From Crambe crambe (lineage: Eukaryota > Porifera > Demospongiae > Poecilosclerida > Crambeidae): a stretch of 64,000 nucleotides of DNA. A program made the position numbers and the translations under genes. The stretch lies in contig OZ004597.1 of the NCBI GenBank assembly GCA_963924555.1, positions 1,568,404 through 1,632,403 on the forward strand, given 5' to 3'. Shown here in pieces: positions 5,216 through 31,458 of this stretch. Within the stretch, counting starts at the first letter, position 1. The number at the start of each line of letters is the position of its first letter. The notes beneath the pieces were generated by a model. The model had not been told where the DNA came from. It saw only the letters and a program-made list of their open reading frames with translations, and did no database searches.

Positions 5216-5335
5216 ATGTCTTATGTCCTAAGGTTTCAGTAATAAGTAGCTAATTCAAGAAGCACTGAGTATAGCTAGAGAGGAAGTGAGCTATCACGCA
5301 GATACTTGCTCAAAACTTGCTCAAATATTGCAATG

Positions 5336-6155
5336 CCCTGGAAAATTGATATAGTTGAATGTGCATACTTTTTATTGTCCTCTCTGCATGCAGATGTCAA
5401 AGAAAAGTTTCCACATCTTATCAAACTGGATGGTATGTCAGAAGAAGAGATAGATGATCTGAAGGAGCGACTAGTACTGGAGAGTGAGGAAATGAGGGGG
5501 AAATTTGCAGTCTTGGTGGGTAAAACTATATCCTCATGCAAACAAAGCTCTGTAGGTGTGTCCAATCTGAGAGCAGTGTTAAAGAATTATAGCTCTGAAA
5601 AGGTTTTGGAAAGTCTGGATAGTGGAACTGATGAAAACATGTGGGAAAAGATTGCTGACTATTGGTCATTTTTTGATTATAAAATTTTAAGCATCATCAT
5701 CAAAGGATTATGCAAAGTTCATGTGGACTTGCTACAAGATTTGGACGCATATATTTCAGATTTCAAAGAATATTGTAAACGTAGACTTTGTGAAGTACCT
5801 GTTGATAGTTTCTCCAAAGAGATCCAAGACAAAGATCATACCTACTTGAATGTCAAGTTCGACCCTCCAGATGGATTCTTTACTTCTGTTGCAAATATTG
5901 CCCGGCAGAATAAATTGCTTTCAAGAATTCTCGAAACTAAAGTACGTCTTTGTAAATTTGAAGATGGATGTATCAACTTTGTTTATATATCTCTCTGTGA
6001 ATTTGACAGTACATTTTCACTAAGTGATGAGCAGAAACAAAACCTTTCAACTCTCGGTGTATTGAAAATATATAGCAATACTAAAGTCTATTATGAAGCA
6101 ATTGCTACGAATGATAAAAATATTGCTGCAAATGACAAAAAAGCTATGATTGATG
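5336..6155 (+). CDS. Uncharacterised helical domain exon (about 285 residues)
   Basis: The reading frame is open from about 5306; the first ATG in frame is 5336 (MPWKIDIVECAY). The product is mostly helical, with an acidic stretch (SEEEIDDLKERL), a central MWEKIADYWSFFDY segment and a C-terminal ligand-like half (HTYLNVKFDPPDGF). I recognise no named family. My impression is that similar segments with a W..FFDY..L core accompany Death domains in other invertebrate genes, but I cannot verify this here. It ends at a GTAAGT donor after 6155. The exon may belong to the Death-domain gene upstream, although the phase I inferred does not join cleanly to 4722. It could instead be a separate gene starting at 5336. 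Confidence 0.55.
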
Positions 6156-6259
6156 GTAAGTAATATATGTTTATGGCACAGAGAAATTGTCCAGACTAAT
6201 GACATTATAGCTAAATATCCACAAGTTATACGTAGTATGTTTTCCCCAATTATATGCAG

Positions 6260-7165: not shown

Positions 7166-9016
7166 CTATGGTGTGTATATTATACTACGTGCCCTGGACT
7201 TGATAATCTTCCTGGAGCTAACATTGATGGCCAGAATCTCACGGCTACATTCGAAACATTGAAGTTTGACGTTCGCTGGAGTCAGAATATTGATAAAGCT
7301 AGACTGTATCATATCGTGCATGAAATAAGCACGTTAGATTACCAATCTTATCCCCATATTATCTTCATATTTGCTGGTCATGGCTGTGAGGGTGGCATGC
7401 TGTACATGCAAGATGGTACAAAAGTTATGCTCTGGGAGACTATAGTTGAGCCTCTTTTACCAAAGAATGCCAAAAATATTGCAACAATTCCAAAGGCCTT
7501 TCTATTTGATGCCTGTCATGGACTGGAGATAACAAAGACAGTGCTTGTACCAAGAAGCTCCAAGGTCAAGAAAACATTGCCAAGAGGGGGAGATCTGATT
7601 GACATGACGAAAGTTCCAGAAGATGCAAATTTTCTGCTAGCTTATTCAACAATGCCAAACCACAAAACCTATGAAAGAAAAGATAAGGGAGGGATATGGT
7701 TCTCAACCTTGGTGGACTTAATCCAAAAACAAGTTCGTCTCTACTCTCTTGATGACCTTCTAACTGAAGTCAATAAATCTATGGCTGCAAATATGAAAGG
7801 CCCAGATTTCCAGCAGCCAGAGAAATTCTCCAGACTCCATGAAGTACTGTGCTTGGATCCACAAGGTTTGTCTTCTGAGTTAACGCATCCAATAATTGGT
7901 GAAAGCTTGTTTCTATACGCTCATAGCTGTTACCCCATCAAGTGCTAACCCATCAAGTGTTAACCCACCAAGAAGAATAGCAGCTGTTTTTCCTTCTGGT
8001 ATTCACAATACAGCTCAACAACCAGGTAGGTATAAAAATCACAATCATAATCATGATACAATCTCACATTAATTTCCTACATGTATATAATACCATTTCT
8101 TCACTATTTAGGCAGTACAACCATACCATTTGTTCAGCTGCTTGCAAGATACACTAAACAGTATGGTTTGCATGAGGAGTACATTGACAAAGAAATTTAC
8201 AATGAAGAATATCAGCATATATACTACTCAAGTGGAGTCAGAATTGTGGGGGGTCATGGTGGGATTTTATTGGAGAATCATGGCACCAACATGTATGTTT
8301 CACTGGATAGTGCGAGAGAAGAAGCAGCTAAAATTGCCTACCAGAGTCTCCTCGAACAGCCACCGACAGGACAGAATGTACTGCCTAGTAGTAGCAATGA
8401 AAGATCAGAAGCTAGAACAGATGGTCAAAGTGTCAGACAGCTGGACACGTCAAAAAGTAAGTTGTTTGAAATTCATTAGTGTTCACACATCGTAACATGT
8501 TAAACTCTAAAGGTCTTGCACCTGAGCCTTTTAAAAATTCTCGGGATCGTCTAAACCACTATTTCCAGAAGAACGGTTTGAATCCGCGGTATGACTACGT
8601 TGAAGACTACAGCTCAGGACAACAGCCAATCTTCAAATGTACCTATTCAGTACTCAGTTAATGGGAAAATCATCAGAAGAGACAGTGGGAGATTCTTCCC
8701 CCGGAAAGCTGATGCCAAAGAAAATGCAGCACATAATGTCCTCCAAAATATGGAAGCTCAACCACATGGTGGAAGTGGAGGAGCTGGAGCTACGGTTGGT
8801 GTGAGTTGGAAGTCACTTCTCAAAGAGCACTATGACAAACGTGGACATCCAAATATGGTGTTGAACTACGACACAATGCAGAGTGGGATTGGCTTCCTCT
8901 CTGAAGTCTTTGTGCCAGAACTGAGAGGCAAGGTGAAAGGTGAAATTGGCAGAAGCAAGAAAGAAGCTGAACAGAGTGCAGCAAAAAAAGCTTTGCAGCT
9001 TCTCAAGGCTATATAG
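7166..9016 (+). pseudogene. Broken, inverted copy of a caspase-dsRBD gene
   Basis: From about 7181 this is a close copy of the intact minus-strand gene at 22827. It carries the caspase domain (FAGHG histidine motif; AYSTMPN substrate-pocket motif), the linker exon (7929-8022), dsRBD1 (8112-8457) and dsRBD2-3 (8512-9016). The start codon and first 25 or so codons are missing: sequence jumps from the old promoter to codon 26. The active-site motif reads DACHG where the intact copies have DACRG. One extra base near 8645 shifts the frame inside dsRBD2. An acceptor-like TTAG before 7166 could let the caspase part be used as an internal exon, but the later frameshift argues for a pseudogene. Confidence 0.75.
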
Positions 9017-9199
9017 CTAGCACAGGCTAATATGGAACTACATCAACAGCTAACTAAAAATATCTGCAGATAGATAGCCATAATAATTATTTTGTGAAAA
9101 TGCTCAATCTATAATTTTATTATAATTATGTTGATTTAATATGAACAAAGAATAACAAAATGACCACAGAAATGATTGTAGCTACTGAGCTAGTTAGCT

Positions 9200-9410
9200 A
9201 TGGCTCTGTTGAGAGTGAAGCCCCAAAGTCATGGTGTTGCTATCATCTTGACCAATGATTACAGCAAAAAAAGCTTTGCAGCTGCTCAAAAGCACAACCT
9301 ACAATTAGCTAGCTACTGTAACTAAAAATTATCTGCGCTATATTAGCTAGATTGTCGGTATAGAGTGTATAATTATAATTATGAACAAAAATAACCACAG
9401 AAATGGCTCA
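9200..9410 (+). pseudogene. Start of the 17777-type caspase gene fused to another gene's 3' end
   Basis: 9200-9263 encodes MALLRVKPQSHGVAIILTND, identical to the first residues of the intact gene starting at 17777. It then jumps directly into AAAAAAGCTTTGCAGCTGCT, the end of the last dsRBD of the longer paralogues, followed by their 3' flank. About a whole gene's worth of sequence has been lost at the junction. Together with the copy at 7166-9016 it preserves the gene order seen around 17777-18151, in opposite orientation. Confidence 0.7.
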
Positions 9411-11924: not shown

Positions 11925-13090
11925 AACTTGATCAGCAAACTAGATATGTCCTGGAGAAATTCAAAGTGGACTCCTCAAAGATATTGAGTAAGTAGCATCA
12001 TGGCTAGCTAAAGATTCAAGGTGTTTCAATTTATAGATATCAAACAGCTTGCTTATGTCAAGGCTGCCATGATACGTGTGATGGCAAGTTGGGAGGATAT
12101 TGGCATCTACTGGGGGATAGACATTAATGATCTGGATGTAATTAAGCGAACATATCGTGATATAGAGCGTCGGTTCACTGAAATGGTAGCCAAATGGCTT
12201 CAGAATGGGTGAGTGATGAATTTTGTGATTGTGGTGCACTTATAACTTATACCATGCATACACACTGCATCCACCAGAAACCAAACTCAGCCAACGTGGG
12301 AGAAGGTAGTTATTGCGATATCAGCAACTACTGCAGGTAGAAACCCAGCTGAAGCTCAGAAGTTGGCAAAGTCATGTCAAGAAGGTGAGTAATCTAGCTT
12401 GCTGATATTCAGGTATTGGCTAATATTATAGCTACACCCTATCCTGATACAGCTGGAGTGGAATCACTCTGCACTGTACCAGAAGCCGATGGAGTAGATG
12501 AATCAGAAATTGGTGTGTTAGGACTTTTTTGTCACATAATAGCTAGCTACATTTGTTTTGTTTTGTTTTTAAATCAGGAAAAGGAGCTATAAATGAAGTC
12601 ATGAAAGCCTTGGAGCCTGTTTCTGCTGAATGGTCCAACATTGGAGTCATGCTGGGTTTAAGTTACAATTTCATAAGATTGCTGGGAGAAGATGACGATA
12701 TAATGGACAGGATACGATCGTTGGCTGAAAGGTGGCTGAAGAAGAATTTTGATTTCAAAAACTTCGGAGTTCCCTCGTGGAAGAAGCTAGTCGAAGTGAT
12801 TGGAGCAAAAGCAGGAGGGGGTGATAGTGCGCATGCTCTTAAGATTGCCAAGGAGCATTATGTAGCAGTTACTGTCAAAAATAGCAGCAGAAAAAGAGCA
12901 CATTCTGGACCAGAAGATGCAACTGACTCAGGTGAACACACCAATGTTGCAGATATCAGAAAAATTCCTCGTCTAGAAGGTAAGTTGGTGGGTAGTTAAC
13001 TAATCAATCAAGAGATGCATTCAAGATTGAACATAATACACAGGTGATACCACCGATGGAGCAGTTAAGGACATTGGATTTCACTTGTGA
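11925..13090 (+). CDS. Protein with two Death-fold domains
   Basis: Exons with GT/AG borders lie at about 11925-11988, 12037-12209, 12279-12384, 12432-12511, 12578-12978 and 13044-13090. The first domain combines SWEDIGIYWGIDINDLDVIK with PTWEKVVIAIS; the second combines EWSNIGVMLGL, a LAERWLKK helix and PSWKKLVEVIG. Both have the layout of Death domains: helices with W..IG..LG, then W, then P.W..L. A Ser/Glu-rich linker separates them and the tail carries a basic SSRKRAH patch. The stop TGA is at 13088-13090. The first exon is not certain. Death domains act as adaptors in apoptosis and NF-kB signalling, which suits a locus next to caspases, but the partner is unknown. Confidence 0.65.
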
Positions 13091-16552: not shown

Positions 16553-17777
16553 TTAAATGCGTGACAGACACATCTTTGCAGCGTCCTCTTCTGCCTCTGG
16601 TTTGGTTCTCTTGGGAGTTCCCGCAATTCTCCCAAAGGGAGCCGCGTAGACAGTTGCTCTATAGCTCCCCCTCTTGATCTTTTCACAATCATAAAAAGGT
16701 GCTGGCTTCTTCAAGATGATTTTGACATAGTACTCCAGCTTGTCTTTTGCAGTGTGGCCCAGAAGAGTAGACACTTTGCTTTGAGTTTCCTTTGTGGTGG
16801 TTGCTTCAGCTGCTTCTCTTCTGGTTGATGACTTGTTCCGTGGCTTTGCTGCAGTGGTATCTCTAGCTTGAGAAGATTTCAGCAACAGTAGATCACCAGC
16901 CTTTTCGTTGCCTGGTATTTTAAGTGCTGGGTAGGCTGTAGGAGGTGAAGGACCTAGAGGAATAGAGGAATACACAGAATTGATAGATTGGTTGTAATAC
17001 TTTAGCAGTACCATTGGAGTCGACTTCTAAGCTGACAATCTCATTGAGTCTCGACAGCTTCTCGGGTTGCTGGAATTTCCTTGAATCTTGGCTCCCTTCT
17101 TTCATGATCCTGTTGACTTCCGTGAGGAGATCGTCAAAGGAGTACAAGTATTCACCTCTTCTCAGCTGCTCAGCCAATGTTGAGAACCACACCCCTCCTT
17201 CACGTCCATTTTCATATGCTTTATAGTTGGGCATCGTCGAATAGGCCACCAGGAAGTTTCCTTCTTCTGGTATTTCCAAAGTGCTGATAAGAGATCCTCC
17301 TCTTGATGGCAATCTTTTGGGAACAGGACTACTTCTTGGTACCGACAAGGTCGGTGTCTCTTTCTCTCCACGACAAGCATCAAATAAGAACACTTTTGGA
17401 ATGTTTCCGATATCTTTAGCATTCTTTGGCAGTAGAGGTTCGATGATGCTCTTACTGATGGAGACTACAGAACCATCTTGCATGTACAACTGACCACCCT
17501 CACGACCATGACCAGCAAATATGAAGATGATACAACGATAGTTCTGCACCAGGTGGTATTTAAGGTGATTTATCTCACTTATGACCTGATTCAGCATGGC
17601 ACTGTCCACATTCTTCTTCCAGTAGACATCGAAGTTGAGTCCCTTGAGTGCATCAGAGAGGTTGTGCCCATCTTGAGTGGTGCCAGGAAGATTGGGGAGT
17701 TTGGGGCAGGTGCTATAGTCATTGGTCAAGATGATAGCAACACCATGACTTTGGGGCTTCACTCTCAACAGAGCCAT
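16553..17777 (-). CDS. Caspase-like protease with one C-terminal dsRNA-binding domain
   Basis: Exon 1 (17777-17012) holds a complete caspase domain starting at residue 1. It has NDYS near the start, a GHNLSDALKGLNF segment, the catalytic histidine in FAGHGREGG, the catalytic cysteine in DACRGEKE, the pocket motif AYSTMPNYKAYE and the p10 strand GGVWFSTL. Exon 2 (16953-16553) joins in frame as DSNGPSPPTAYP, adds a basic low-complexity linker (KPRNKSSTRREAAEA) and ends in a dsRBD-like domain (TAKDKLEYYVKI, then EAEEDAAKMCLSRI). There is no CARD or DED. Aspartates available for self-cleavage are few between the two subunits. It is the most diverged and shortest of the cluster. Protease activity and RNA binding are inferred from motifs. 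Confidence 0.75.
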
Positions 17778-18150
17778 AGCTAACTAGCTTAATACTATTA
17801 AAGATCCCCACTGGTATCCTAAGAGTAATCCAGAGAATTTATATAATTCACGGCTAGGTAATGTTATTCATGATTCCAACCAACCACCTTTTCTAGGGTA
17901 TAGCTTTGATCAATTCTAGGGAAATAGTATTCACCAATCACCACACCTCATAGCTAAGGGGAACATCACCTTAGCCACAATCATTTCTCTGGTCATTTTG
18001 TTGTTCTTTGTTCAAGTTATAATGATAATAATACTCTAATTAAACAACATCATTATAATAAAATTATAGATTGAGCATTTTCACAAAATTTTTATAATAT
18101 GGCTATCTTTTAGTTAGCTGTTAATGTAGTTCCATATTAGCCTGTGCTAG
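17778..18150. other. Intergenic spacer between two caspase-dsRBD genes
   Basis: AT-rich, without exons. It holds the 3' UTR of the gene ending at 18151 and the promoter of the gene starting at 17777. An inverted relative of this spacer follows the broken copy at 9017-9199, which shows that both loci come from one duplicated block. I see no kB-type site here, unlike upstream of the next two genes. Confidence 0.6.
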
Positions 18151-20030
18151 CTATATAGCCTTGAGAAGCTGCAAAGCTTTTTTTGCTGCACTCTGTTCAG
18201 CTTCTTTCTTGCTTCTGCCAATTTCACCTTTCACCTTACGTCTCAGTTCTGGCACAAAGACTTCGGAGAGGAAGCCACTCCCACTCGGCATTGTGTCGTA
18301 GTTCAACACCATATTTGGATGTCCACGTTTGTCATAGTGCTCTTTGAGAAGTGACTTCCAACTCACACCGACCGTAGCTCCAGCTCCTCCACTTCCACCA
18401 CGTGGTTGAGTGTCAGCTTCCATATTTTGGAGGACATTACGTGCTGCGTTTTCTTTGGCATCATCTTTCCGGGGGAAGAATCTCCCACTGTCTCTTCTGA
18501 TGATTTTCCCATTAACTGAGTACTGAATGGTACATTTGAATATTGGCTGTCCTGAGCTGTAGTCCTCAACGTAGTCATACCGCGGATTCAAACCGTTCTT
18601 CTGGAAATAGTGGTTTAGACGATCCCGAGAATTTTTAAAAGGCTCAGGTGCAAGACCTTTAGAGTTTAACATTATGTTACAATGTGTGAACACCACTGAA
18701 TTTCAAACAACTTACTTTTTGACATGTCCAGCTGTCTGACACTTTGACCATCTGTTCTAGCTTCTGCTCTTACATTGCTACTACTAGGCAGTACATTCTG
18801 TCCTGTCGGTGGCTGTTTGAGGAGACTCTGGTAGGCAATTTTAGCTGCTTCTTCTCTCGCCTCATCCAGTGAAACATACATGTTGGTGCTATGACACTCC
18901 AATAAAAAACCACAATGAGCCCCCACTACTTTGACTGCACTCGAGTAATATTTCCGTTGATATTCTTCACTGTAGATTTCTTTGTCAATGTATTCCACAC
19001 GCAAGCCATATTGTTTAGTGTATCTTGCAAGCACATGAACAGACAGTGTGCCTACAGCATGGAAAGAGTGCTTTCATGACGATAGCCAGGTACTATAATG
19101 AAGCTAGTACCTGGTTGTTGTTGGGGTGTTATTGTATTATTGGCTGAAGGAAAAACAGCAGCTATCTTTCTTGAGCAGCCAGTGGAAACAGAAGCTGTGA
19201 ATATAAATTAATAGGTACATAATTAGAAAAACTGAAGAGAGTGTGGTAGCTCTCTCTATGTAGGGATTATGTATACCTTGTGGATCTTGTGGAGCTAAGC
19301 ATATAACGTCATTTAGTCTGGACAATTTCTCTGGTTGCTGAACATCTGGGCCCAATAGATCTTCAGTCATAGATTTATTGACCTTTGTTAGAAGGTCCTC
19401 AAGGGAGTGCAAACACTCTCGTCTTTGGATTAGTTTAACCAAGGTTGAGAACCATATCCCTCCCTGACCTCTTTTTTCATAGGCTTTGTGGTTAGGCATC
19501 GTTGAATAAGCTAGCAGGAAATTTCCAGCAGCTGGAACTTGTTTCATATCGATCAGCTCTCCCCCTCTTGGTGATGTTTTCTCAACCACTGGGCTTCTTG
19601 GCACAAGTACTGTTTCTGTTCTTTCCTTTCCACGGCAAGCATCAATTAAAAAGGCCTTTGGAACATTTCCAAGATGTTGTGACCTCTTTGGAAGTAAAGG
19701 CTCCAATATGTCCTTACAGATGGACACTTCTGCACCATCTTCCATGTATAGCTTGTCACCCTCACAACCATGACCAGCAAATATGAAAATGATACAGGGA
19801 TACGTTTGGTAGTTTATCTGGGTTATATCATACACTGTCTGATGCAATTCAACTCTGCTGATATTCTGTTTCCAAATGACATGAAAGTTCAATGCATTGA
19901 ACGCACAGGAGAGATTATCACCGTCTACACCGGTTCCAGCAAGAGTCTCAAGTTGACGGACGGTTTCATAATTATTGGTTATGATCACAACTATGCCGTT
20001 TGTTCCCCGACGCTCTGATATTCCACTCAT
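18151..20030 (-). CDS. Caspase-like protease with three dsRNA-binding domains
   Basis: Four exons: 20030-19277, 19194-19111, 19051-18716 and 18656-18151. I start at the ATG 20030 (MSGISERRGTNG), since the open frame further upstream has no ATG. The caspase domain has VIITNNYE, FAGHGCEGD (His), LIDACRGKERTE (Cys), AYSTMPNHKAYEK and GGIWFSTLVKLI. A Gln-ending linker exon follows. dsRBD1 runs from LARYTKQYGL to EEAAKIAYQSLL, dsRBD2 from RLNHYFQKNGL to DAKENAARNVLQ, and dsRBD3 from WKSLLKEHYD to EAEQSAAKKALQLL, each with the K/A-rich final helix of the family. The frame is intact to TAG 18151-18153. This is the cleanest member of the cluster and the best one for judging the architecture. Confidence 0.82.
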
Positions 20031-20087
20031 TCTGATTAACCATACTATAATCTCTTCTCTATCACTTAACAATGCTGCCACTGAAAC

Positions 20088-20129
20088 GCTGATTCAGCAA
20101 TTCCTTAATTAGCATTCCTGGAAATTCCC
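20088..20129 (-). promoter_or_regulatory. kB site and MARE/AP-1-like palindrome upstream of the gene at 20030
   Basis: Read on the minus strand, GGGAATTTCC (20129-20120) matches the NF-kB consensus GGGRNWYYCC. GCTGAATCAGC (20098-20088) is a near-perfect palindrome close to the MARE consensus TGCTGACTCAGCA. They lie 90 and 58 bases upstream of the ATG. The same pair occurs upstream of the next gene with a different spacer. Confidence 0.5.
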
Positions 20130-20174
20130 GGGGACTATTATTTTTGTAAAATTAATTTTAATCAAAAGTCATAA

Positions 20175-22827
20175 TTATGATTGGAGTAGTTGGAGTGCTT
20201 TCTGGGCAGCACTGTGTTCAGCATCTTGTTTACTTGAACGTTTCTCCCCAGTAACACTACCCACTTTTGGACAGAAGACTGTCGACCTAAAGCCTGATGA
20301 GCCATCCATTTTGGTGTCATATTTAATCTCTACCACCTTTCCTCTCATTTCAGCATCAAAATGCTCTTTGAGTTTTGATTTCCATGTCTTTTTTTGTGAA
20401 GTTTTCTTCTTTGAGGTGGAGACTGAGTTGGATGTTCCTAATCATAAGGCATGTGATAAAGTTAACTTAATAATCTACTGATACACTACAAACCTCTTCC
20501 CTGATGTGAATTCCACATCTCAATTTGTCCACAAGCTTTTTCTGCAGCACTTTCTTTTGCTGCTGCCTTGGTAGGCTCCAGTGAACTGTGCACGGTAAAT
20601 GGTGGTGAATTTACCATATGAACTTCGACACAAAATAAAAACTGGTTTGTTGGAGGACTAGAATATTCTTTAAACTCATATCTTGTAATAATTTCCTTCT
20701 GTTGATATGTGTTCAATTGATTACGGAAAAATCCTTGTTGGTTTTGCTGTGCTATGACTGCAGCTGTACAGCCTGTATAATTGGCATGATATTTAAAAGT
20801 GCCTCAATATTCACTACATGCAGTATCACCTTGTTGAATGCGCACCCATTCAGCTCCACTTGCTTGAGATTGACAGCTGCTCTCATTCTGAATGGCTATA
20901 GCTACAGATCTCATGAACAACCATGATTATTATTAATAGCTAAATGTAGTTATCACCTTGTAGCCCACCATATTTGGCAGCTTTTTTTGCTGCACTCTGT
21001 TCAGCTTCTTTCTTGCTTCTGCTTTCACCTTGCCTCTCAGTTCTGGCACAAAGACTTTGGAGAGGAAACCACTCCCATTCTGCATTGTGTCGTAGTTCAA
21101 CACCATATTTGGATGTCCACGTTTGTCATAGTGCTCTTTGAGAAGTGACTTCCAACTCACACCGACCGTAGCTCCAGCTCCTCCACTTCCACCACATGGT
21201 TGAGTGTCAGCTTCCATATTTTGGAGGACATTACGTGCTGCATTTTCTTTGGCATCAGCTTTCCGGGGGAAGAATCTCCCACTGTCTCTTCTGATGATTT
21301 TCCCATTAACTGAGTACTGAATAGTACATTTGAAGATTGGCTGTTGTCCTGAGCTGTAGTCTTCAACGTAGTCATACCGCGGATTCAAACCGTTCTTCTG
21401 GAAATAGTGGTTTAGACGATCCCGAGAATTTTTAAAAGGCTCAGGTGCAAGACCTTTAGAGTTTAACATGTTACGATGTGTGAACACTAATGAATTTCAA
21501 ACAACTTACTTTTTGACGTGTCCAGCTGTCTAACACTTTGACCATCTGTTCTAGCTTCTGATCTTTCATTGCTACTACTAGGCAGTACATTCTGTCCTGT
21601 CGGTGGCTGTTCGAGGAGACTCTGGTAGGCAATTTTAGCTGCTTCTTCTCTCGCACTATCCAGTGAAACATACATGTTGGTGCCATGATTCTCCAATAAA
21701 ATCTCACCATGACCCCCCACAATTCTGACTCCACTTGAGTAGTATACATGCTGATATTCTTCATTGTAAATTTCTTTGTCAATGTACTCCTCATGCAAAC
21801 CATACTGTTTAGTGTATCTTGCAAGCAGCTGAACAAATGGTATGGTGGTACTGCCTAAATAGTGAAGAAATGGTATTGTAGGAAATTAATGTGTGATTGT
21901 ATATCATTATGATTTTTATACCTACCTGGTTGTTGAGCTGTATTGTGAATACCAGAAGGAAAAACAGCTGCTATTCTTCTTGGTGGGTTAACACTTGATG
22001 GGTTACCAGGAACAGAGGCTATGAGCGTATAGAAACAAGCTTTCACCAATTATTGGGTGCATTAACTCAGAAGACAAACCTCGTGGATCCAAGCACAGTA
22101 CTTCATGGAGTCTGGAGAATTTCTCTGGCTGCTGGAAATCTAGGCCTTTCATATTTGCAGCCATAGATTTATTGACTTCAGTTAGAAGGTCATCAAGAGA
22201 GTAGAGACGAACTTGTTTTTGGATTAAGTCCACCAAGGTCGAGAACCATATCCCTCCTTTATCTTTTCTTTCATAGGCTTTGTGGTTCGGCATTGTTGAA
22301 TAAGCTAGCAGAAAATTTGCATCTTCTGGAACTTTCGTCATGTCAATCACATCTCCCCCTCTCGGCAATGTTTTCTTGACCTCAGAGCTTCTTGGTACAA
22401 GCACTGTCTTGGTTGTCTCCAGTCCACGACAGGCATCAAATAGAAAGGCCTTTGGAATTGTTGCAATATTTTTGGCATTCTTTGGTAAAAGAGGCTCGAC
22501 TATAGTCTCCCAGAGCATAACTTTTGTACCATCTTGCATGTACAGCATGCCACCCTCACAGCCATGACCAGCAAATATGAAGATAATACGGGGGTAAGAT
22601 TGGTAATCTAACGTGCTTATTTCATGCACGATATGATACAGTCTAGCTTTATCAATATTCTGACTCGAGCGAACGTCAAACTTCAATGTTTTGAATGCAG
22701 CCGTGAGATTCTGCCCATCAATGTTAGCTCCAGGAAGATTATCAAGTCCAGGGCACGTAGTATAATCATTTGTTACGATAACAGCAATGCCGTTGGCTTC
22801 CCGATGCTCTCTTATTCGATCCTCCAT
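20175..22827 (-). CDS. Caspase-like protease fused to three to five dsRNA-binding domains (chimeric)
   Basis: The start MEDRIREHREANG (22827) leads into a caspase domain with FAGHGCEGG, DACRGLETT and AYSTMPNHKAYER. A linker exon, dsRBD1 (21855-21511) and dsRBD2-3 follow, all close to the 20030 gene. Near 21023 a 10-base deletion relative to its paralogues shifts the frame at the end of dsRBD3, replacing the final helix, with a stop near 20933. Downstream exons still encode dsRBD4 (20760-20497, LNTYQQKEIITRYEF and ESAAEKACGQI) and dsRBD5 (20438-20175, WKSKLKEHFD and AEHSAAQKALQLL). These match the tail of the 25284 gene, so the gene looks like a fusion of two types. It either ends early or depends on alternative splicing to reach the last two domains. 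Confidence 0.7.
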
Positions 22828-22914
22828 GATTATTAACAGAACTAGCTAGTCTTAGCTAGTGTACTAGCTGTGGATCTCCAATCAGTACACACCATAACTT
22901 CATTACACTAAAAA

Positions 22915-22943
22915 TGCTGATTCAGCGCCGGCCGGGAAATTCC
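22915..22943 (-). promoter_or_regulatory. kB site and MARE/AP-1-like palindrome upstream of the gene at 22827
   Basis: GGGAAATTCC on the plus strand (22934-22943), also a consensus kB site in reverse, is followed toward the gene by TGCTGATTCAGC (22915-22926). They lie about 107 and 88 bases upstream of the ATG 22827. Compared with the pair at 20088-20129 the intervening bases differ in length and sequence but both core sites are kept. Confidence 0.5.
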
Positions 22944-22999
22944 CCGGGGACTATTTTTATTATTGTTAATTATCACTTTAATTAGAACATTCCTCATCA

Positions 23000-25284
23000 T
23001 CAATCAGAGTTGAGTAGTTCAAGTGCTTTCTGGGCAGCACTGTGTTCAGCATCTTGTTTACTTGAACATTTCTCCCCAGTAACACTTCCCACTTTTGGAC
23101 AGAAGACTGTTGACCTATAGCTTAATGAGCCATCCAATTTGGTGTCATATTTAATCTCTACCACCTTTCCTCTCATTTCAGCATCAAAATACTCTTTGAG
23201 TTTTGATTTCCATATTTTCTTTTGTGAAGTTTTCTTCTTTGAGGTAGAAGTAGGACTGGAAACTGACTTGGATGTTCCTAATCACAATATGATGATCAAA
23301 CTTAATTAGTTACTGAATAAATACTACAAACCTCTTCCCTGATGTGAATTGTACATCTCAATTTGTTCACAAGCTTTTTCTGCAGCACTTTCTTTTGCTG
23401 CTGCCTTGGTAGGCTTCGATGAACCATGCACGGTAAATTGTGGTGAATTTGCCATATGAACTTCGACACAAAATAAAAACTGGTATGTTGGAGGACTAGA
23501 AAAATCTGTAAACTCATAGCTTCTAATAATTCCCTTCTGTTGATATGTGTTCAATTGATTACGGAAAAATCCTTGCTGGTTTTGCTGTGCTATGACTGCA
23601 GCTGTATTGGCATGATATTAAAAAAGCCTCAATATTCACTACATGCAGTATCACCTTGTTGAATGTGCACCCATTCAGCTCCACTTGCTTGAGATTGACA
23701 GCTGCTCTCATTCTGAATGGCTATAGCTACAGATCTCATAATTATTATTGCTAGCTAAATGTAGTTATCACCTTGTGGAGGAATTGCTCCGGCTTGATAG
23801 CTGCTGCCTTCAATTTGGAGGCCTAATATAGTTCATTATGCATTTACAATATATTGAATATTAGTACATTTACCTTGAAATGCTTCATCAACTTCACTAC
23901 CTTGCCACTGACATCCACCATTTCCACCACTGAAAACTACACAATTACATTGAAATCACATGATAACAACAGTTAGTTGCTCCTATAGCTACTTATTGGG
24001 TATGAAACATAAGACAGCATGCAGAGCATGGCTGAATAGTGGTATTTTGTAATCACCTTGTTAGCTAGCTATATATAGATAATACCTGGCACATCTATTG
24101 GAACAGGTTGTTGTGAATAGTTGTGGACACCTACTACACAATATTTAATATGGTGAATTCATAGCATAGGATTAACATGTGCTGGTCACCTGCTGAGATG
24201 TATTGCTGCTGCTGCTGACCATCAGTGTATGTCATGTTAGAGTGCCCTGGAGCTTCAATCAGTATGAGATGGTAGTTACCATAATTGAATGGCTTACCAT
24301 GATCTGGTTCCAAATGTTGCAATTGTTGTTCTTGCTGTTGTTGTTGTTGCTGCTGCTGGAATAATTGAAGTTGTTGTTCTAATTCTTGTCGTCGTAGCTC
24401 TTCTATTACATAGAAGAATGATAATAGCTACTATGCATGTAATTGCATACCTGCATACCTAATAATATTAACATTTTAGCTTCTTCAAGCAGATTAACAT
24501 CCTCATTCAAAGCATTCATGTGCACAGGTTGCTGTGGTATAGCGATATGAAGCAAATTATTCACTTTTCTAAGCAAGCTTTCGAGTACTAGCCCAGTATT
24601 CTCTTCATTGATGAGCTCATGTGACAAAATATGTGTCCACATGCCTCCTACACTTGCATCCTCTATTGCTTCCATCCCTAGTAATGTGGAGTGGGCTATA
24701 AGAAAATTTGATACAGTTGGTCTCACGTCTCCCCTAGCTACATACTGTGAATCTCCTCGACCATACATTTTTAATGTCTCTAAATCAATGCCTGTATTCG
24801 TTCCCTTCCCTCGGCATGTATCAATGAAGAACAGCTTGGCATGAGGGATAAGTTGCTTCGCCTGTAGTATAGGAGTAACAATCTCACTATCTAAACTGAT
24901 GGAGTCATCTTTTGTGTATAGAAGATCACCATCACCTCCATGACCTGAAAAAGTCACGACAATTCTCCTCCATGACTCTGGTAGCTTTATTGCATCACAA
25001 TTTAGTTGTGAAGTAATTTGCATCACTCTCATGATATGTTCTTTGGTTGGGTCAGGCAGACAAAGAGTTACAAATCTCAGAGTTTGAAAGGTTTTGTTGA
25101 GTTCTCTGAGGTCATGATCGACTCCTGTCAAGGTCCTATGATCGGGGTTTGAGCTATTCTTGCATCCTATAATAATGGCCAATCCATTCGTGAGGTGATG
25201 GTTAGAATGGTCGCGGATAGCTCGTACCATCCAAGTGTGTATATCTTCTACTCTCGGAAGAAGCAGATCCCGAGCTTGGGCCAT
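23000..25284 (-). CDS. Divergent caspase-like protease with Gln-rich linker and two dsRNA-binding domains
   Basis: I prefer ATG 25284 (MAQARDLLLPRVED); another in-frame ATG is 25308. An extra N-terminal helix of about 40 residues precedes the protease domain, which has LAIIIGCKNS, FSGHGGDGD (His), FIDTCRGKG (Cys) and IAHSTLLGMEA in the pocket position. Exon 2 (about 24403-24303) is Gln-rich with a run of Q. Several small exons follow between about 24250 and 23640 (SGGNGGCQWQGSEVDEAF; NESSCQSQASGAEW). Two dsRBDs come last: LNTYQQKGIIRSYEF to ESAAEKACEQI (23590-23335), and WKSKLKEYFD to AEHSAAQKALELL (about 23277-23000). The pocket and cysteine contexts differ from the other three, so its specificity may differ. 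It is divergently arranged with the beta-helix gene. Confidence 0.72.
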
Positions 25285-25426
25285 CGAGAACTGGCGACAC
25301 AGTATCATTTAATAGGCCACGCCCCGGCCCCCAGCATCATAACATAACAGGTCAGCATATGCAAAGGGGGAGGGTCTGGCATTCATAACGCATGCGCATT
25401 TCGACTCAATTAGTTAGGTGATAATA
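25285..25426. promoter_or_regulatory. Compact bidirectional promoter between caspase and beta-helix genes
   Basis: Only 142 bases separate the divergent start codons at 25284 and 25427. The spacer holds the GC box GGCCACGCCCCGGCCCCC (25315-25332) and a CGCATGCGCA palindrome near 25389, similar to NRF-1 sites. Both are repeated in front of the second beta-helix gene. Confidence 0.55.
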
Positions 25427-27799
25427 ATGAAGCACTTCTTTTTGAGGGTTATGCAGGTGGGTGGTCTGATGCTTACCCTGATTCTAGGGTCCTGCCTTGC
25501 AGATAAGTCTACATTTGACTGCAAGATGAGGCAACTGGCCATGGATTATGCTCGCAAGATCCAGCCATGGCTCTCCAGTGACAAGTACCAAGAAATAGCT
25601 GATGCCCTCAATGGGGCTGAAGAAGCTCAACATTGCAATGTCTCTTCTGGAGTAAATTTTCCAATTTACAAGTCTCCTGCCTTTTCTGTGCCCAGTGAAG
25701 CCTCAACTACTTATTATGTGGATGCAATCAAGGGCAGTGACTCCAACTCCGGAACAGAGGCTTCTCCATTCCAAACGATCCCCAAAGCCATTATGGCTGC
25801 TCGTTCTTCTGGACCAGGTGCAGTGATTGTACTGAGAAGTGGCACTTTCTACCTGACAGATACCATTATGCTGGGTGCAAATGACAGTGGACTCACCATA
25901 CAGAATTACGCCAACGAAGATGTGGTTATCAGTGGAGGGAAAGTGATCAAACCAAGCTGGGAAGAAGTCAACACACAGAACTCCATGAATATCTACAAAG
26001 CAGATCTCTCCTCGCAGGGAATCGGCTCCACCATGTTGGGGTTTCGTGTGAATGGGACAAGAGCAATCAGAGCTCGATATCCAAATGCAGACCCAGAAAC
26101 ACAGGGTTTCGCATCGTCCCTAAAGGCCAAGAAATGGCTCCCCCAAGCAGCCCCGATCAGTCCTGCTGTTGAAGAGTTTCCGGACACACCCTTACGAAAT
26201 TCTTCCGATTCGTTCCAAAAATACCAGCTGGGCATTAACGGTACTTGCGCTAACTTCTCACCCCCTGCCGGGTACTGGTGCGGGAATCAAACCAGTGGGG
26301 GAGGAGCATTCACATATCGGATTCCATCAGGTATGATTGCTGATAAGTCCATTCTCCCCAACCAACCCTACAAGAGTGCAGTGGGGGCTGTACTTCAGGT
26401 CTGGAGGCCTGGACACTGGGCTAGTTGGATGTTTGAAGTTGGAAATTACAGTAGTGATTCCGGAACCTTCACCTTCTCTAAGGGAGGTTTCCAAGGTGCT
26501 CGAGGCAATAACAATGGTGATGAATTTTTCATTGAGAATGTGATGGAAGAGCTGGACTACCCCAATGAGTGGTTCTACGATACCTCCAACTCAATGCTCT
26601 ATTTCTTTTACAATGCCTCTTCTGGGACCAAGCCCCCTACTGACATAACTTATGTGGTGCCTACCATCAAAACACTGATCTCGATCCAGGGCTCGCAGGA
26701 CGTGCCTGCAACTGGAATTACATTCAGGGGCATTAAGTTCCGTGACACTGCCTATACTTACATGGATCCTCATGGCATGCCTTCTGGTGGTGACTGGGGC
26801 CTTCAGAGAATGGGTGCCCTGTTCTTCGAAGGAACCAAGAACGTGCTTGTTCAAGAGTGCATTTTCGAGCGTCTTGATGGCAATGCCATTATGGTTTCCG
26901 GCTACAACAGGAACACAACTATCTATAAAAACGAGTTTGTCTGGATTGGAGATTCCGCCATTGCCCAGTGGGGAGACACAAGTGGATCCAGCGCGAAAGG
27001 AATGGGGTGGGATGGGACCGATGGGAACCAGCCACGTTTCACCCAAGTTCTCTACAACTTTGTCCACGAATTGGGAATCTTTGAGAAGCAATCATCCTTC
27101 TACTTCCAAGCGAAATCCTGCCAGAATAACATCACAGGAAACATCTTCTTCAATGGACCCCGTGCTGGTATCAACTTCAACGACGGGTTTGGAGGGGGGA
27201 GTAATGTCACTGAAAACCTCTTATTCAACACTTGCCGTGAGTCAGGTGACCATGGACCATTCAACAGCTGGGACAGGCAGGTCTATGTCACTAAGGTACG
27301 AACTGGATCACCTGACACCATCAAAGAGTGGGATTACATCTCCGATAACTTCATGATAGCCAATTACCACAGCACTCTGGCCATTGACAATGATGATGGT
27401 TCAGCTTACTACCAAACTCACGATAACTTCTTTGCATATTCTAGCAGAGGAATGAAGAATGACTTTGGTGGTCACGACAATCGTCACTACAGGAATATAT
27501 ATGGCTACGTTGACACGGGATTTAGGATCACTACGCAGCTTAAAGGCCACGAAGATTACTTTTTTAATAACACTGTAGTGATGAATAAAGATGGGGATTA
27601 TGGAAATATGCAATGCAGTGGTGATGGGAAGACTGTAGTCCACGATAACGCCATTTATTCCCCCACAGGGAAAGTCACTGAATGTGGAATGAGCCTGGCT
27701 GATTGGCAAGCCAAGGGAAATGACCCTGGCACAAAAGCCAATAAATTCCCTGAGGATGATGAGCTTGTTGCAATGATCAAAAAGTTACTGGATATCTAA
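25427..27799 (+). CDS. Secreted right-handed parallel beta-helix protein, copy 1
   Basis: A single exon of 790 codons starts at ATG 25427; frames further upstream begin with GTG. MKHFFLRVMQVGGLMLTL followed by ILGSCLADKS is a signal peptide with a likely cut after CLA. Then come a short helical domain, STTYYVDAIKGSDSNSGT and SPFQTIPKAIMAA, which is the opening typical of right-handed beta-helix (DUF1565-like) proteins, and many parallel-helix rungs with N-rich turns (ECIFERLDGNAIMVSG, NNITGNIFFNGPRAG). Such proteins usually bind or cleave polysaccharides, but no catalytic set can be assigned by eye. The gene has no introns and is more GC-rich than its neighbours. Bacterial proteins of the same layout are common, so old horizontal gain is possible. 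Confidence 0.8.
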   Translation: MKHFFLRVMQVGGLMLTLILGSCLADKSTFDCKMRQLAMDYARKIQPWLSSDKYQEIADALNGAEEAQHCNVSSGVNFPIYKSPAFSVPSEASTTYYVDAIKGSDSNSGTEASPFQTIPKAIMAARSSGPGAVIVLRSGTFYLTDTIMLGANDSGLTIQNYANEDVVISGGKVIKPSWEEVNTQNSMNIYKADLSSQGIGSTMLGFRVNGTRAIRARYPNADPETQGFASSLKAKKWLPQAAPISPAVEEFPDTPLRNSSDSFQKYQLGINGTCANFSPPAGYWCGNQTSGGGAFTYRIPSGMIADKSILPNQPYKSAVGAVLQVWRPGHWASWMFEVGNYSSDSGTFTFSKGGFQGARGNNNGDEFFIENVMEELDYPNEWFYDTSNSMLYFFYNASSGTKPPTDITYVVPTIKTLISIQGSQDVPATGITFRGIKFRDTAYTYMDPHGMPSGGDWGLQRMGALFFEGTKNVLVQECIFERLDGNAIMVSGYNRNTTIYKNEFVWIGDSAIAQWGDTSGSSAKGMGWDGTDGNQPRFTQVLYNFVHELGIFEKQSSFYFQAKSCQNNITGNIFFNGPRAGINFNDGFGGGSNVTENLLFNTCRESGDHGPFNSWDRQVYVTKVRTGSPDTIKEWDYISDNFMIANYHSTLAIDNDDGSAYYQTHDNFFAYSSRGMKNDFGGHDNRHYRNIYGYVDTGFRITTQLKGHEDYFFNNTVVMNKDGDYGNMQCSGDGKTVVHDNAIYSPTGKVTECGMSLADWQAKGNDPGTKANKFPEDDELVAMIKKLLDI

Positions 27800-28970: not shown

Positions 28971-29095
28971 GCTTGGGCCATTGATTGGAACGGGTGACAC
29001 AGCATAGGCCACGCCCCGGCCCCCAGCGCATGCATGTACATGCAACTGGTATCATAACGCATGCGCATTTCGACTCAATTAGTTCGGTGATAATA
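28963..29095. promoter_or_regulatory. Duplicated promoter carrying a fossil of the caspase gene start
   Basis: The block matches 25270-25426, including the GC box (29007-29024) and CGCATGCGCA. On the minus strand it still encodes MAQARDL, the first seven codons of the caspase gene at 25284, and then diverges. The duplicated segment therefore began inside that gene's first exon. Confidence 0.7.
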
Positions 29096-29127
29096 ATGAA
29101 GCACTTGTTTTTGAGGTGGGTGGTCTG

Positions 29128-31458
29128 ATGCTTACCCTGATTCTAAGGTCCTGCCTTGCAGATAAGTCTACATTTGACTGCAAGATGAGGCAACTGGCCA
29201 TGGATTATGCTCGCAAGATCCAGCCATGGCTCTCCAGTGACAAGTACCAAGAAATAGCCGATGCCCTCAATGGGGCTGAAGAAGCTCAACATTGCAATGT
29301 CTCTTCTGGAGTGAATTTGCCAATTTACAAGTCTCCTGCCTTTTCTGTGCCCAGTGAAGCCTCAACTACTTATTATGTGGATGCAATCAAGGGCAGTGAC
29401 TCCAACTCCGGAACTGAGGCTTCTCCATTCCAAACAATCCCCAAAGCCATCATGGCTGCTCGTTCTTCTGGACCAGGTGCAGTGATTGTACTGAGAAGTG
29501 GCACTTTCTACCTGACAGACACCATTATGCTGGGTGCAAAGGACAGCGGCCTCACCATACAGAATTATGCCAACGAAGATGTGGTTATCAGTGGAGGGAA
29601 GGTGATCAAACCAAGCTGGGAAGAAGTCAACACACAGAACTCCATGAATATCTACAAAGCGGATCTCTCCTCACAGGGAATCGGCTCCACCATGTTGGGG
29701 TTTCGTGTGAACGGGACAAGAGCAATCAGAGCTCGATATCCAAATGCAAACCCAGAAACACAGGGTTTCGCATCGTCCCTAAAGGCCAAGAAATGGCTCC
29801 CCCAAGCAGCCCCGATCAGTCCTGCTGTTGAAGAGTTTCCGGACACACCCTTACGAAATTCTTCCGATTCGTTCCAAAAATACCAGCTGGGCATTAACGG
29901 TACTTGTGCTAACTTCTCACCCCCTGCCGGGTACTGGTGCGGGAATAATACCAGTGGGGGAGGAGCATTCACATATCGGATTCCATCAGGTATGATTGCT
30001 GATAAGTCCATTCTCCCCAACCAACCCTACAAGAATGCAGTGGGGGCTGTACTTCAGGTCTGGAGGCCTGGACACTGGGCTAGTTGGATGTTTGAAGTTG
30101 GAAATTACAGTAGTGATTCGGGAACCTTCACCTTCTCTAAGGGAGGTTTCCAAGGTGCTCGAGGCAATGACAATGGTGATGAATTTTTCATTGAGAATGT
30201 GATGGAAGAGCTGGACTACCCCAATGAGTGGTTCTACGATACCTCCAACTCAATGCTCTATTTCTTTTACAATGCCTCTTCTGGGACCAAGCCCCCTACC
30301 GACATAACTTATGTGGTGCCTACCGTCAAAACACTGATCTCGATCCAGGGCTCACAGGACGCGCCTGCAACTGAAATTACAATCAGGGGCATTAAGTTCC
30401 GTGACACTGCCTATACTTACATGGATCCTCATGGCATGCCTTCTGGTGGTGACTGGGGCCTTCAGAGAATGGGTGCCCTGTTCTTCGAAGGAACCAAGAA
30501 CGTGCTTGTTCAAGAGTGCATTTTCGAGCGTCTTGATGGTAACGCCATTATGGTTTCCGGCTACAACAGGAACACAACTATCTATAAAAACGAGTTTGTC
30601 TGGATTGGAGATTCCGCCATTGCCCAGTGGGGAGACACAAGTGGATCCAGCGTGAAAGGAATGGGGTGGGATGGGACTGACGGGAACCAGCCACGTTTCA
30701 CCCAAGTTCTCTACAACTTCGTCCACGAATTGGGAATCTTTGAGAAGCAATCGTCCTTCTACTTCCAAGCAAAATCCTGTCAGAATAACATCACCGGCAA
30801 CATCTTCTTCAATGGACCCCGTGCTGGTATCAACTTCAACGACGGGTTTGGAGGGGGGAGTAATGTCACTGAAAACCTCTTATTCAACACTTGCCGCGAG
30901 TCAGGTGACCATGGACCATTCAACAGCTGGGACAGGCAGGTCTATGTCACTAAGGTACGAACTGGATCACCTGACACCATCAAAGAGTGGGATTACATCT
31001 CTGATAACTTCATGATAGCCAATTACGACAGTATTCTGGCCATTGATAATGATGATGGTTCAGCTTACTACCAAACTCACGATAACTTCTTTGCATATTC
31101 TAGCAGAGGAATGAAGAATGACTTTGGTGGTCACGACAATCGTCACTACAGGAATATATATGGCTACGTTGACACGGGATTTAGGATCAATCAGCAGCTT
31201 AAAGGCCATGAAGATTACTTTTATAATAACACTGTAGTGATGAATAAAGATGGGGATTATGGAAATATGCAATGCAGTGGTGATGGGAAGACTGTAGTCC
31301 ATGATAACGCCATTTATTCCCCCATGGGGAAAGTCACTGAGTGTGGAATGAGCCTGGCTGATTGGCAAGCAAAGGGAAATGACCCTGGCACAACAGCCAA
31401 TAAATTCCCTGAGGATGATGAGCTCGTTGCAATGATTAAAAAGCTATTGGATATCTAA
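29128..31458 (+). CDS. Secreted right-handed parallel beta-helix protein, copy 2
   Basis: This is a tandem copy of the gene at 25427, almost identical from STFDCKMRQL to the C-terminal MIKKLLDI. A 10-base deletion just after the ancestral start (ATG 29096) puts that ATG out of frame, so it meets a stop within about a dozen codons. The first in-frame ATG is 29128 and gives MLTLILRSCLADKS, a much shorter hydrophobic leader with an arginine near its end. Export may be weakened. The rest of the frame is open and changes are few (for example NHSTL versus NYDSI regions), so the copy is young or kept by selection or conversion. Confidence 0.75.
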   Translation: MLTLILRSCLADKSTFDCKMRQLAMDYARKIQPWLSSDKYQEIADALNGAEEAQHCNVSSGVNLPIYKSPAFSVPSEASTTYYVDAIKGSDSNSGTEASPFQTIPKAIMAARSSGPGAVIVLRSGTFYLTDTIMLGAKDSGLTIQNYANEDVVISGGKVIKPSWEEVNTQNSMNIYKADLSSQGIGSTMLGFRVNGTRAIRARYPNANPETQGFASSLKAKKWLPQAAPISPAVEEFPDTPLRNSSDSFQKYQLGINGTCANFSPPAGYWCGNNTSGGGAFTYRIPSGMIADKSILPNQPYKNAVGAVLQVWRPGHWASWMFEVGNYSSDSGTFTFSKGGFQGARGNDNGDEFFIENVMEELDYPNEWFYDTSNSMLYFFYNASSGTKPPTDITYVVPTVKTLISIQGSQDAPATEITIRGIKFRDTAYTYMDPHGMPSGGDWGLQRMGALFFEGTKNVLVQECIFERLDGNAIMVSGYNRNTTIYKNEFVWIGDSAIAQWGDTSGSSVKGMGWDGTDGNQPRFTQVLYNFVHELGIFEKQSSFYFQAKSCQNNITGNIFFNGPRAGINFNDGFGGGSNVTENLLFNTCRESGDHGPFNSWDRQVYVTKVRTGSPDTIKEWDYISDNFMIANYDSILAIDNDDGSAYYQTHDNFFAYSSRGMKNDFGGHDNRHYRNIYGYVDTGFRINQQLKGHEDYFYNNTVVMNKDGDYGNMQCSGDGKTVVHDNAIYSPMGKVTECGMSLADWQAKGNDPGTTANKFPEDDELVAMIKKLLDI

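Follow-up and report, generated by a model that had tools for sequence, protein, structure and literature searches.

We analysed a stretch of 64,000 nucleotides from the sponge Crambe crambe (contig OZ004597.1), which will be referred to as the window and to which all position numbers refer. Its minus strand carries, from 16553 to 25308, four tandem genes, each with an exon encoding a caspase-fold domain followed by exons encoding domains that resemble double-stranded RNA (dsRNA)-binding domains (dsRBDs). If uncertain and broken ones are counted, genes 1, 2, 3 and 4 possess two, five, three and one of these dsRBD-like domains, respectively. A fifth, inverted copy at 7166-9016 (+), which was not part of the first-pass annotation of this DNA, aligns with gene 2 over 1820 columns at a DNA identity of 95.6%. 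It is decayed and comprises a caspase domain (DACHG) whose 5′ end is missing, dsRBD-like domain 1, dsRBD 2 split by a frameshift and dsRBD 3; the same domain order recurs in five copies.

That four consecutive minus-strand genes begin with a caspase-type domain, as had been noted before, was confirmed by matches to PF00656 (Peptidase_C14) in all four, located in the open reading frames (ORFs) 24406-25308 (E 3e-23), 22003-22845 (1.4e-30), 19137-20093 (5.8e-30) and 16920-17783 (5.8e-32). The motifs quoted at that time (GHG, DACRG or DTCRG, YSTMPN or HSTLLG) are present in the sequence. Likewise, the proposed lack of a CARD or DED held for the 15 ORFs scanned with Pfam, small exons being outside the scan, and the same scan detected neither a death domain nor the Ig domains that are a trait of type 1 paracaspases.

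Caspase-fold domains and their active site

The alignment demonstrated that the catalytic His and Cys are retained in all five window domains. The structure predicted for gene 2 (predicted local distance difference test score, pLDDT, 64.6; predicted template modelling score, pTM, 0.67) matched caspases in all of the best 50 of 365 Foldseek rows (E 0.001). The best sequence match of gene 2 is to executioner caspases (caspase-3/7), and the best matches of gene 1 are caspases as well. A profile of the window domains scored 94.4 bits against caspase-3, 83.7 and 82.5 against insect caspases, 74.4 against caspase-8, 23.8 against MALT1 and 1.4 against the yeast metacaspase Mca1; on the last value, membership of the metacaspases was rejected. 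In a tree of 11 sequences the four caspases formed a clade without the window genes (99.9/100), genes 2-5 (the fifth copy included) joined the caspases at a low support of 29.6/36, and gene 1 stood apart from genes 2-5. Scans of viral_contigs and genome_contigs yielded no relatives of the caspase domain.

To compare the substrate pockets, the five window domains were aligned using MAFFT with caspase-3, caspase-8, two insect caspases, MALT1 and the yeast metacaspase. The S1 pocket of caspase-3 was represented by R64, Q161 and R207. At these columns all five window domains, including the decayed copy, carry L/D/E. The same residues are found in MALT1, the yeast metacaspase has L/D/D, and all four caspases have R/Q/R. 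The columns of MALT1 D462 and E500 are occupied by D and E in all five window domains; D is also present at the column of MALT1 D365, but caspase-3 has D there too. The motif before the His reads GHG in the window domains and MALT1, SHG in three of the four caspases and THG in the fourth.

Published systems were compared on the basis of excerpts from nine articles (PMC11251625, PMC5978004, PMC4357240, PMC8195603, PMC6207715, PMC6237847, PMC3144912, PMC7836458 and PMC10967218). According to McLuskey and Mottram, Arg87, Gln184 and Arg233 are the Asp-binding residues of caspase-7, Asp365, Asp462 and Glu500 set the P1 specificity of MALT1, and Glu500 overlies Arg233. We favour the pocket E of the window domains as the equivalent of R207, because of its placement by MAFFT and its invariance in all copies. 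The L/D/E pocket predicts cleavage after Arg rather than after Asp, and this predicted change of specificity is the most useful new fact to emerge from the locus. With this pocket in all five copies, Asp-site death substrates are therefore not the expected targets.

Judged by sequence comparison, the window genes are caspase-like by whole-domain score and paracaspase-like by active site. They share with MALT1 the GHG motif, the D before the catalytic dipeptide, the E on loop L5 and the L at the position of the caspase arginine (PMC5978004, PMC4357240, as excerpted); in contrast, MALT1 has death and Ig domains and its whole-domain similarity to them is weak. From caspase-3/7, with which they share the fold and, for gene 2, the best match, they differ by the replacement of R/Q/R by L/D/E. 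A possible home are the type 2 paracaspases, which are described as consisting of the protease domain only and as present in porifera; the excerpts mention no dsRBD for them or for MALT1, whereas the window genes carry dsRBD-like domains.

In the first-pass annotation the array was read as encoding a death protease that dsRNA triggers directly, a natural counterpart of DRACO, which in our terms would be a classical death caspase. The caspase fold and the best sequence likeness to caspases agree with this, and a dsRBD and a caspase in one chain fit the DRACO design, in which, according to the part of PMC3144912 consulted, a procaspase is allowed as effector. Nevertheless, the Asp-binding residues are replaced in all five copies, two of them by acidic ones, and the intersubunit linker of gene 4 is devoid of Asp. 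We therefore regard a classical death caspase as improbable, although cleavage after Arg might likewise lead to death; the analogy to PKR and DRACO is supported as an idea for activation by clustering.

The intersubunit linker contains VPR-S in four of the five copies, as LVPR-S in genes 2 and 3 and the fifth copy and as SVPR-S in gene 4. Comparable sites are known for MALT1: the table of a review, one of the excerpted sources, lists Regnase (LVPR-GGS) and Roquin-1 (MVPR-GSQ), cut at the hyphen, and in the excerpt of a study on MALT1 specificity, Phe(guan)-LVPR was the most active peptide substrate.

dsRBD-like domains and exon joining

All four genes had been annotated as ending in dsRBDs, one to five in number. 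Among their nine dsRBD-bearing ORFs, three match PF00035 (dsrm) above the Pfam cut-off, namely 18151-18702 (75.3 bits, two stretches), 20933-21496 (42.7 bits) and 20175-20441 (24.9 bits), and these belong to genes 2 and 3. Three further ORFs remain below the cut-off (23000-23281, E 0.00085; 20486-20803, 0.012; 23324-23617, 0.071), and for 16553-17026, 21487-21885 and 18672-19073 no PF00035 match was obtained at E 0.1. Both dsRBDs of gene 1 and the one of gene 4 are consequently below the cut-off or unmatched. The range of one to five agrees with our counts, except that the third of the five in gene 2 is broken.

The three unmatched ORFs were examined with an in-house profile of seven other window dsRBDs, among 1002 sequences, against 1000 shuffles and in a six-frame scan of 1511 ORFs. 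The gene 4 ORF 16553-17026 reached E 0.0013 among the 1002 sequences with none of the 1000 shuffles as good, but only 0.024 in the six-frame scan; after trimming, its dsrm match has an E of 0.099. The respective values for 18672-19073 were 0.0089, none of 1000 and 0.084. For 21487-21885, one of the 1000 shuffles was as good, and the ORF was not listed in the six-frame scan. The first dsRBD-like domains of genes 2 and 3 are thus the least certain of the putative dsRBDs.

A second profile (A2) was built from six of the 11 dsRBD-like pieces of the window, omitting three weak pieces, the broken domain and one piece that nearly duplicates another in the profile. It matched 26 sequences of the Protein Data Bank (PDB) at E ≤0.01, the best being PKR (3.9e-10), followed by TARBP2 and ADAR2; as far as is known, all 26 are dsRBD proteins. 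Single dsRBD queries found no matches in the PDB, only the six-row profile did, and AlphaFold prediction of the gene 4 dsRBD exon without an alignment gave a pLDDT of 38.6. A search with the gene 3 exon that encodes dsRBDs 2 and 3 yielded no counterpart in viral_contigs and eight bacterial or archaeal loci in genome_contigs. Given that this query also matches the RNase III model, we regarded the eight as ordinary dsRBDs.

Exons were joined by GT-AG sites picked for openness. The resulting models are open for gene 1 (nine exons, 598 residues, all eight introns GT-AG and phase 1), gene 3 (four exons, 559 residues) and gene 4 (two exons, 388 residues). Phase 1 introns account for all 12 in these three models and for five of the six in gene 2, and the intron after the caspase exon measures 56-82 bases in all four. 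Since the sites were picked for openness and frame-compatible GT-AG joins are common, the open models are support and not proof of joining, and as proof they were rejected. Better evidence for internal dsRBD exons is the missing Met: six of the nine dsRBD-bearing ORFs have none before the domain, and therefore need an upstream exon. The dsRBD exons follow the caspase exon on its 3′ side in the fifth copy as well as in all four gene models, which corroborates the order originally described.

Splicing of caspase and dsRBD exons into one protein is plausible but unproven. Alternatively, the two kinds of exon might represent separate transcripts alternating in a duplicated array. The ease with which compatible joins are found, which makes an open model alone weak, and the Met preceding the domain in the other three ORFs would fit this explanation. 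It conflicts with the six ORFs without Met and with the shortness of the post-caspase introns, and all five copies repeat the order, a pattern that would, however, also result if a whole unit had been duplicated. On balance separate transcripts appear unlikely.

Gene 2 deserves separate mention. Judged against the fifth copy, a deletion of 10 bases disrupts its third dsRBD, which might be an assembly error, and its domains 4 and 5 are in frame solely via an alternative acceptor; the acceptor used in gene 1 gives six stops. Gene 2 as a clean five-dsRBD protein was rejected on this account. The parts of all copies are compiled in Table 1.

Table 1. Exons and domains of the caspase-dsRBD array in the window
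Feature	Position	Strand	Evidence
Gene 1 caspase-fold exon (GHG, DTCRG, HSTLLG...E)	24459..25308	-	PF00656 E 3e-23; splice model
Gene 1 linker, six small exons, Q-/G-rich	23655..24402	-	nine-exon open model, sites picked for openness
Gene 1 small linker exons	24298-24402, 24190-24252, 24086-24130, 23874-23936, 23772-23822, 23655-23726	-	
Gene 1 dsRBD 1	23332..23601	-	dsrm E 0.071, below cut-off; row in six-row dsRBD profile A2
Gene 1 dsRBD 2 and stop	23000..23277	-	dsrm E 0.00085, DSRM_2 5.7e-05, both below cut-off
Gene 2 caspase-fold exon (GHG, DACRG, YSTMPN...E; linker LVPRSS)	22080..22827	-	PF00656 E 1.4e-30
Gene 2 linker exon, phase 1-1	21926..22018	-	splice model
Gene 2 dsRBD-like 1, divergent, uncertain	21510..21854	-	no Pfam family at E 0.1; 1/1000 shuffles as good
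Gene 2 dsRBD 2 and broken dsRBD 3	20957..21453	-	dsrm E 8.6e-11; 10-base gap relative to the 7166-9016 copy
Gene 2 small exon, in frame solely via alternative acceptor	20830..20887	-	splice model
Gene 2 dsRBD 4	20494..20763	-	dsrm E 0.012, below cut-off; 84% identity to gene 1 dsRBD 1
Gene 2 dsRBD 5 and stop	20175..20437	-	dsrm E 3e-05
Gene 3 caspase-fold exon (linker LVPRSP)	19277..20030	-	PF00656 E 5.8e-30; splice model
Gene 3 linker exon, phase 1-1	19111..19194	-	splice model
Gene 3 dsRBD-like 1, divergent, uncertain	18716..19051	-	seven-dsRBD profile E 0.0089; no dsrm match
Gene 3 dsRBDs 2 and 3, stop	18151..18656	-	dsrm E 5.9e-21, two stretches
Gene 4 caspase-fold exon (linker SVPRSS)	17012..17777	-	PF00656 E 5.8e-32
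Gene 4 single dsRBD-like exon	16553..16953	-	joined in model via 58-base phase 1 intron
Fifth, decayed copy	7166..9016	+	PF00656 9.7e-27, dsrm 2.3e-11; DNA identity to gene 2

Copy history of the array and neighbouring features

The 5′ part of gene 2 resembles gene 3 and the fifth copy, and its 3′ part is 88.6% identical to the 3′ part of gene 1. Gene 2 thus looks like a chimera with the 10-base deletion near the join. Between genes 2 and 3 the number of synonymous substitutions per site (dS) is 0.59 for the caspase exon, 0.20 for the first dsRBD-like exon and 0.07 for the exon of dsRBDs 2 and 3. Because of this difference (0.07 versus 0.59), the dsRBD 2-3 block (18151-18702 in gene 3 and 20933-21496 in gene 2, both minus strand) has probably been copied recently between the two genes.

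Ratios of nonsynonymous to synonymous substitution (dN/dS) for 12 exon pairs were 0.30, 0.45, 0.18, 0.26, not computable (the caspase exons of genes 1 and 2), 0.63, 0.27, 0.61, 0.27, 0.27, 1.58 and 0.36. Eight of the 12 pairs are below 0.5, a count given without a significance test. These data bear on the explanation that the array is decaying and has little function, with gene conversion keeping the copies alike while most become pseudogenes. The frameshifted fifth copy, the 10-base deletion of gene 2, unless an assembly error, and the low dS of dsRBDs 2-3 compared to the caspase exons would be in line with such decay. However, the models of genes 1, 3 and 4 are open, and the caspase exons of genes 2-4, compared with one another, show a dN/dS of 0.18-0.45. 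We consider general decay very unlikely.

Close to the fifth copy, a short fragment at 9194-9322 (+) matches the start of the caspase profile (E 8.9e-06) and may be what is left of a sixth copy, and a few kilobases from the fifth copy a sub-threshold Death domain match lies at 12547-12999 (+; E 0.015). The ORFs 25418-27799 and 29083-31458 (+; 793 and 791 amino acids) share 96.5% DNA identity over 2470 columns and probably represent a recent tandem duplication; the former has weak beta-helix and GH141-type matches. Further features of the window are a TNP-like transposase RNase H domain at 1348-2289 (-; E 1.8e-22), a 294-amino-acid ORF at 5279-6163 (+) with no Pfam match at E 0.1, and dynein motor-type AAA matches at 46414-47046 and 51409-52326 (+), perhaps parts of one large multi-exon gene.

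Proposed mechanism and relation to known systems

Taken together, we tentatively prefer, at somewhat less than an even chance, a caspase-fold family in which dsRBDs replace the death-fold recruitment domain and which combines a paracaspase-charged S1 pocket with an Arg protease activated by clustering. In such a mechanism, the dsRBDs of several molecules would align on long dsRNA, or dimerise, and thereby draw the protease domains together. The protease dimer would then turn active and cut its own flexible intersubunit linker at the conserved VPR-S, and the active enzyme might cleave substrates after Arg as part of immune signalling or as an effector, whether or not the cell dies; an antiviral role is conceivable. 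The fuller version, a natural dsRNA-activated Arg-cutting protease that would join PKR-style sensing and MALT1-style cleavage on a caspase-like scaffold, with VPR-S self-cleavage, and would form an unrecognised branch of animal caspases whose fusion arose independently of that in oysters, is possible but doubtful.

Several observations weigh against this interpretation. As a whole, the domain is far more similar to caspase-3 than to MALT1 (94 versus 24 bits), and phmmer leaves a gap at the pocket E, the placement of which rests on MAFFT. The linker of gene 1 lacks VPR-S, and Lys and Arg abound in the intersubunit linkers in any case, for which reason the conserved linker Arg is no more than suggestive. 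According to the excerpted MALT1 specificity study, moreover, Gly is required fairly strictly at the position following the cut, where the window linkers have Ser. Gene 2 has a frame break and one copy is decayed. With respect to selection, dN/dS is 1.58 in one dsRBD pair and 0.61-0.63 in two, and the decayed copy is a partner in four of the 12 pairs, leaving five of eight below 0.5 for genes 1-4 alone. Finally, none of the 11 dsRBD-like domains keeps all three helix-2 lysines of PKR (K60, K61 and K64), four of the 11 have E at the K64 position, and the DRACO paper (PMC3144912), in the part consulted, terms the PKR mutation K64E deleterious.

The dsRNA binding assumed initially has thereby become less certain, though not to the same degree for all genes. 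Two of the lysines are kept in five of the 11 domains: K60 and K64 in gene 1 dsRBD 1, gene 2 dsRBDs 2 and 4 and gene 3 dsRBD 2, and K60 and K61 in gene 3 dsRBD 3, so that genes 1-3 each have at least one such domain. The sole dsRBD of gene 4 has K, P and E at the three positions. Binding of dsRNA is plausible for genes 1-3 and doubtful for gene 4, as far as residues can tell. The partial loss of lysines, together with the E in gene 4, might also be explained by dsRBDs that serve for protein docking instead of RNA sensing; through them an Arg-specific protease would be anchored to proteins with dsRBDs such as Dicer or ADAR and would regulate an RNA pathway. In agreement with this, 18151-18702 matches the Dicer dimerisation model above the cut-off (26.7 versus 23.7 bits), and several others match below it. 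Against docking, PKR is the solved chain that the six-row profile resembles most, and each of genes 1-3 has at least one domain with two of the three lysines. We judge docking to be rather unlikely, yet the most serious competitor of the dsRNA-clustered protease.

Caspase-type proteases that act as sensors themselves are not without precedent. Caspase-4/5/11 bind lipopolysaccharide directly; they resemble the proposed proteins in that the caspase itself is the sensor, and differ in using a CARD instead of a dsRBD and in recognising lipid instead of RNA. PKR, the best PDB match of the dsRBD profile, would share the proposed clustering logic, but its effector is a kinase, whereas in the window the effector is a protease, the dsRBDs are C-terminal and fewer helix-2 lysines are kept. 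DRACO (PMC3144912, as excerpted) likewise unites dsRNA binding and caspase recruitment in one chain, procaspases being among its effectors; it is synthetic and works through Asp-cutting caspases, whereas Arg specificity is predicted here.

The closest known relatives in architecture are Cg3C-like A and B of the Pacific oyster Crassostrea gigas, reported in 2021 (PMC7836458, consulted in part) as caspases with two N-terminal DSRM domains, which the authors called new for any caspase and considered a possible virus detector. As in the window, dsRBDs are fused to a caspase domain in close paralogues. In the oyster, however, the two dsRBDs stand in the N-terminal prodomain of members of the caspase-3C group, whereas one to five are C-terminal in the window; the MALT1-like S1 pocket is a feature of the window genes, the oyster pocket being outside the comparison. 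A mussel paper also includes DSRM among the caspase domains in a figure legend, and the section consulted of PMC11251625, with one sponge in its data, describes caspases with CARD, DED, NHR or the protease alone and no dsRBD. No report of the caspase-dsRBD order or of the charge-reversed pocket was found in the literature examined, which covered neither most subscription papers nor any animal protein database.

The idea of a dsRBD-caspase fusion is therefore partly known already from oysters; the window genes show the reversed order and carry a charge-reversed pocket. If the proposed interpretation is true, the fusion of dsRBDs with caspase-type proteases exists in two or more forms, with the dsRBDs ahead of the protease as published for oysters and behind it as in the window, and the divide between Asp-cutting caspases and Arg-cutting paracaspases can arise inside a caspase-like lineage.

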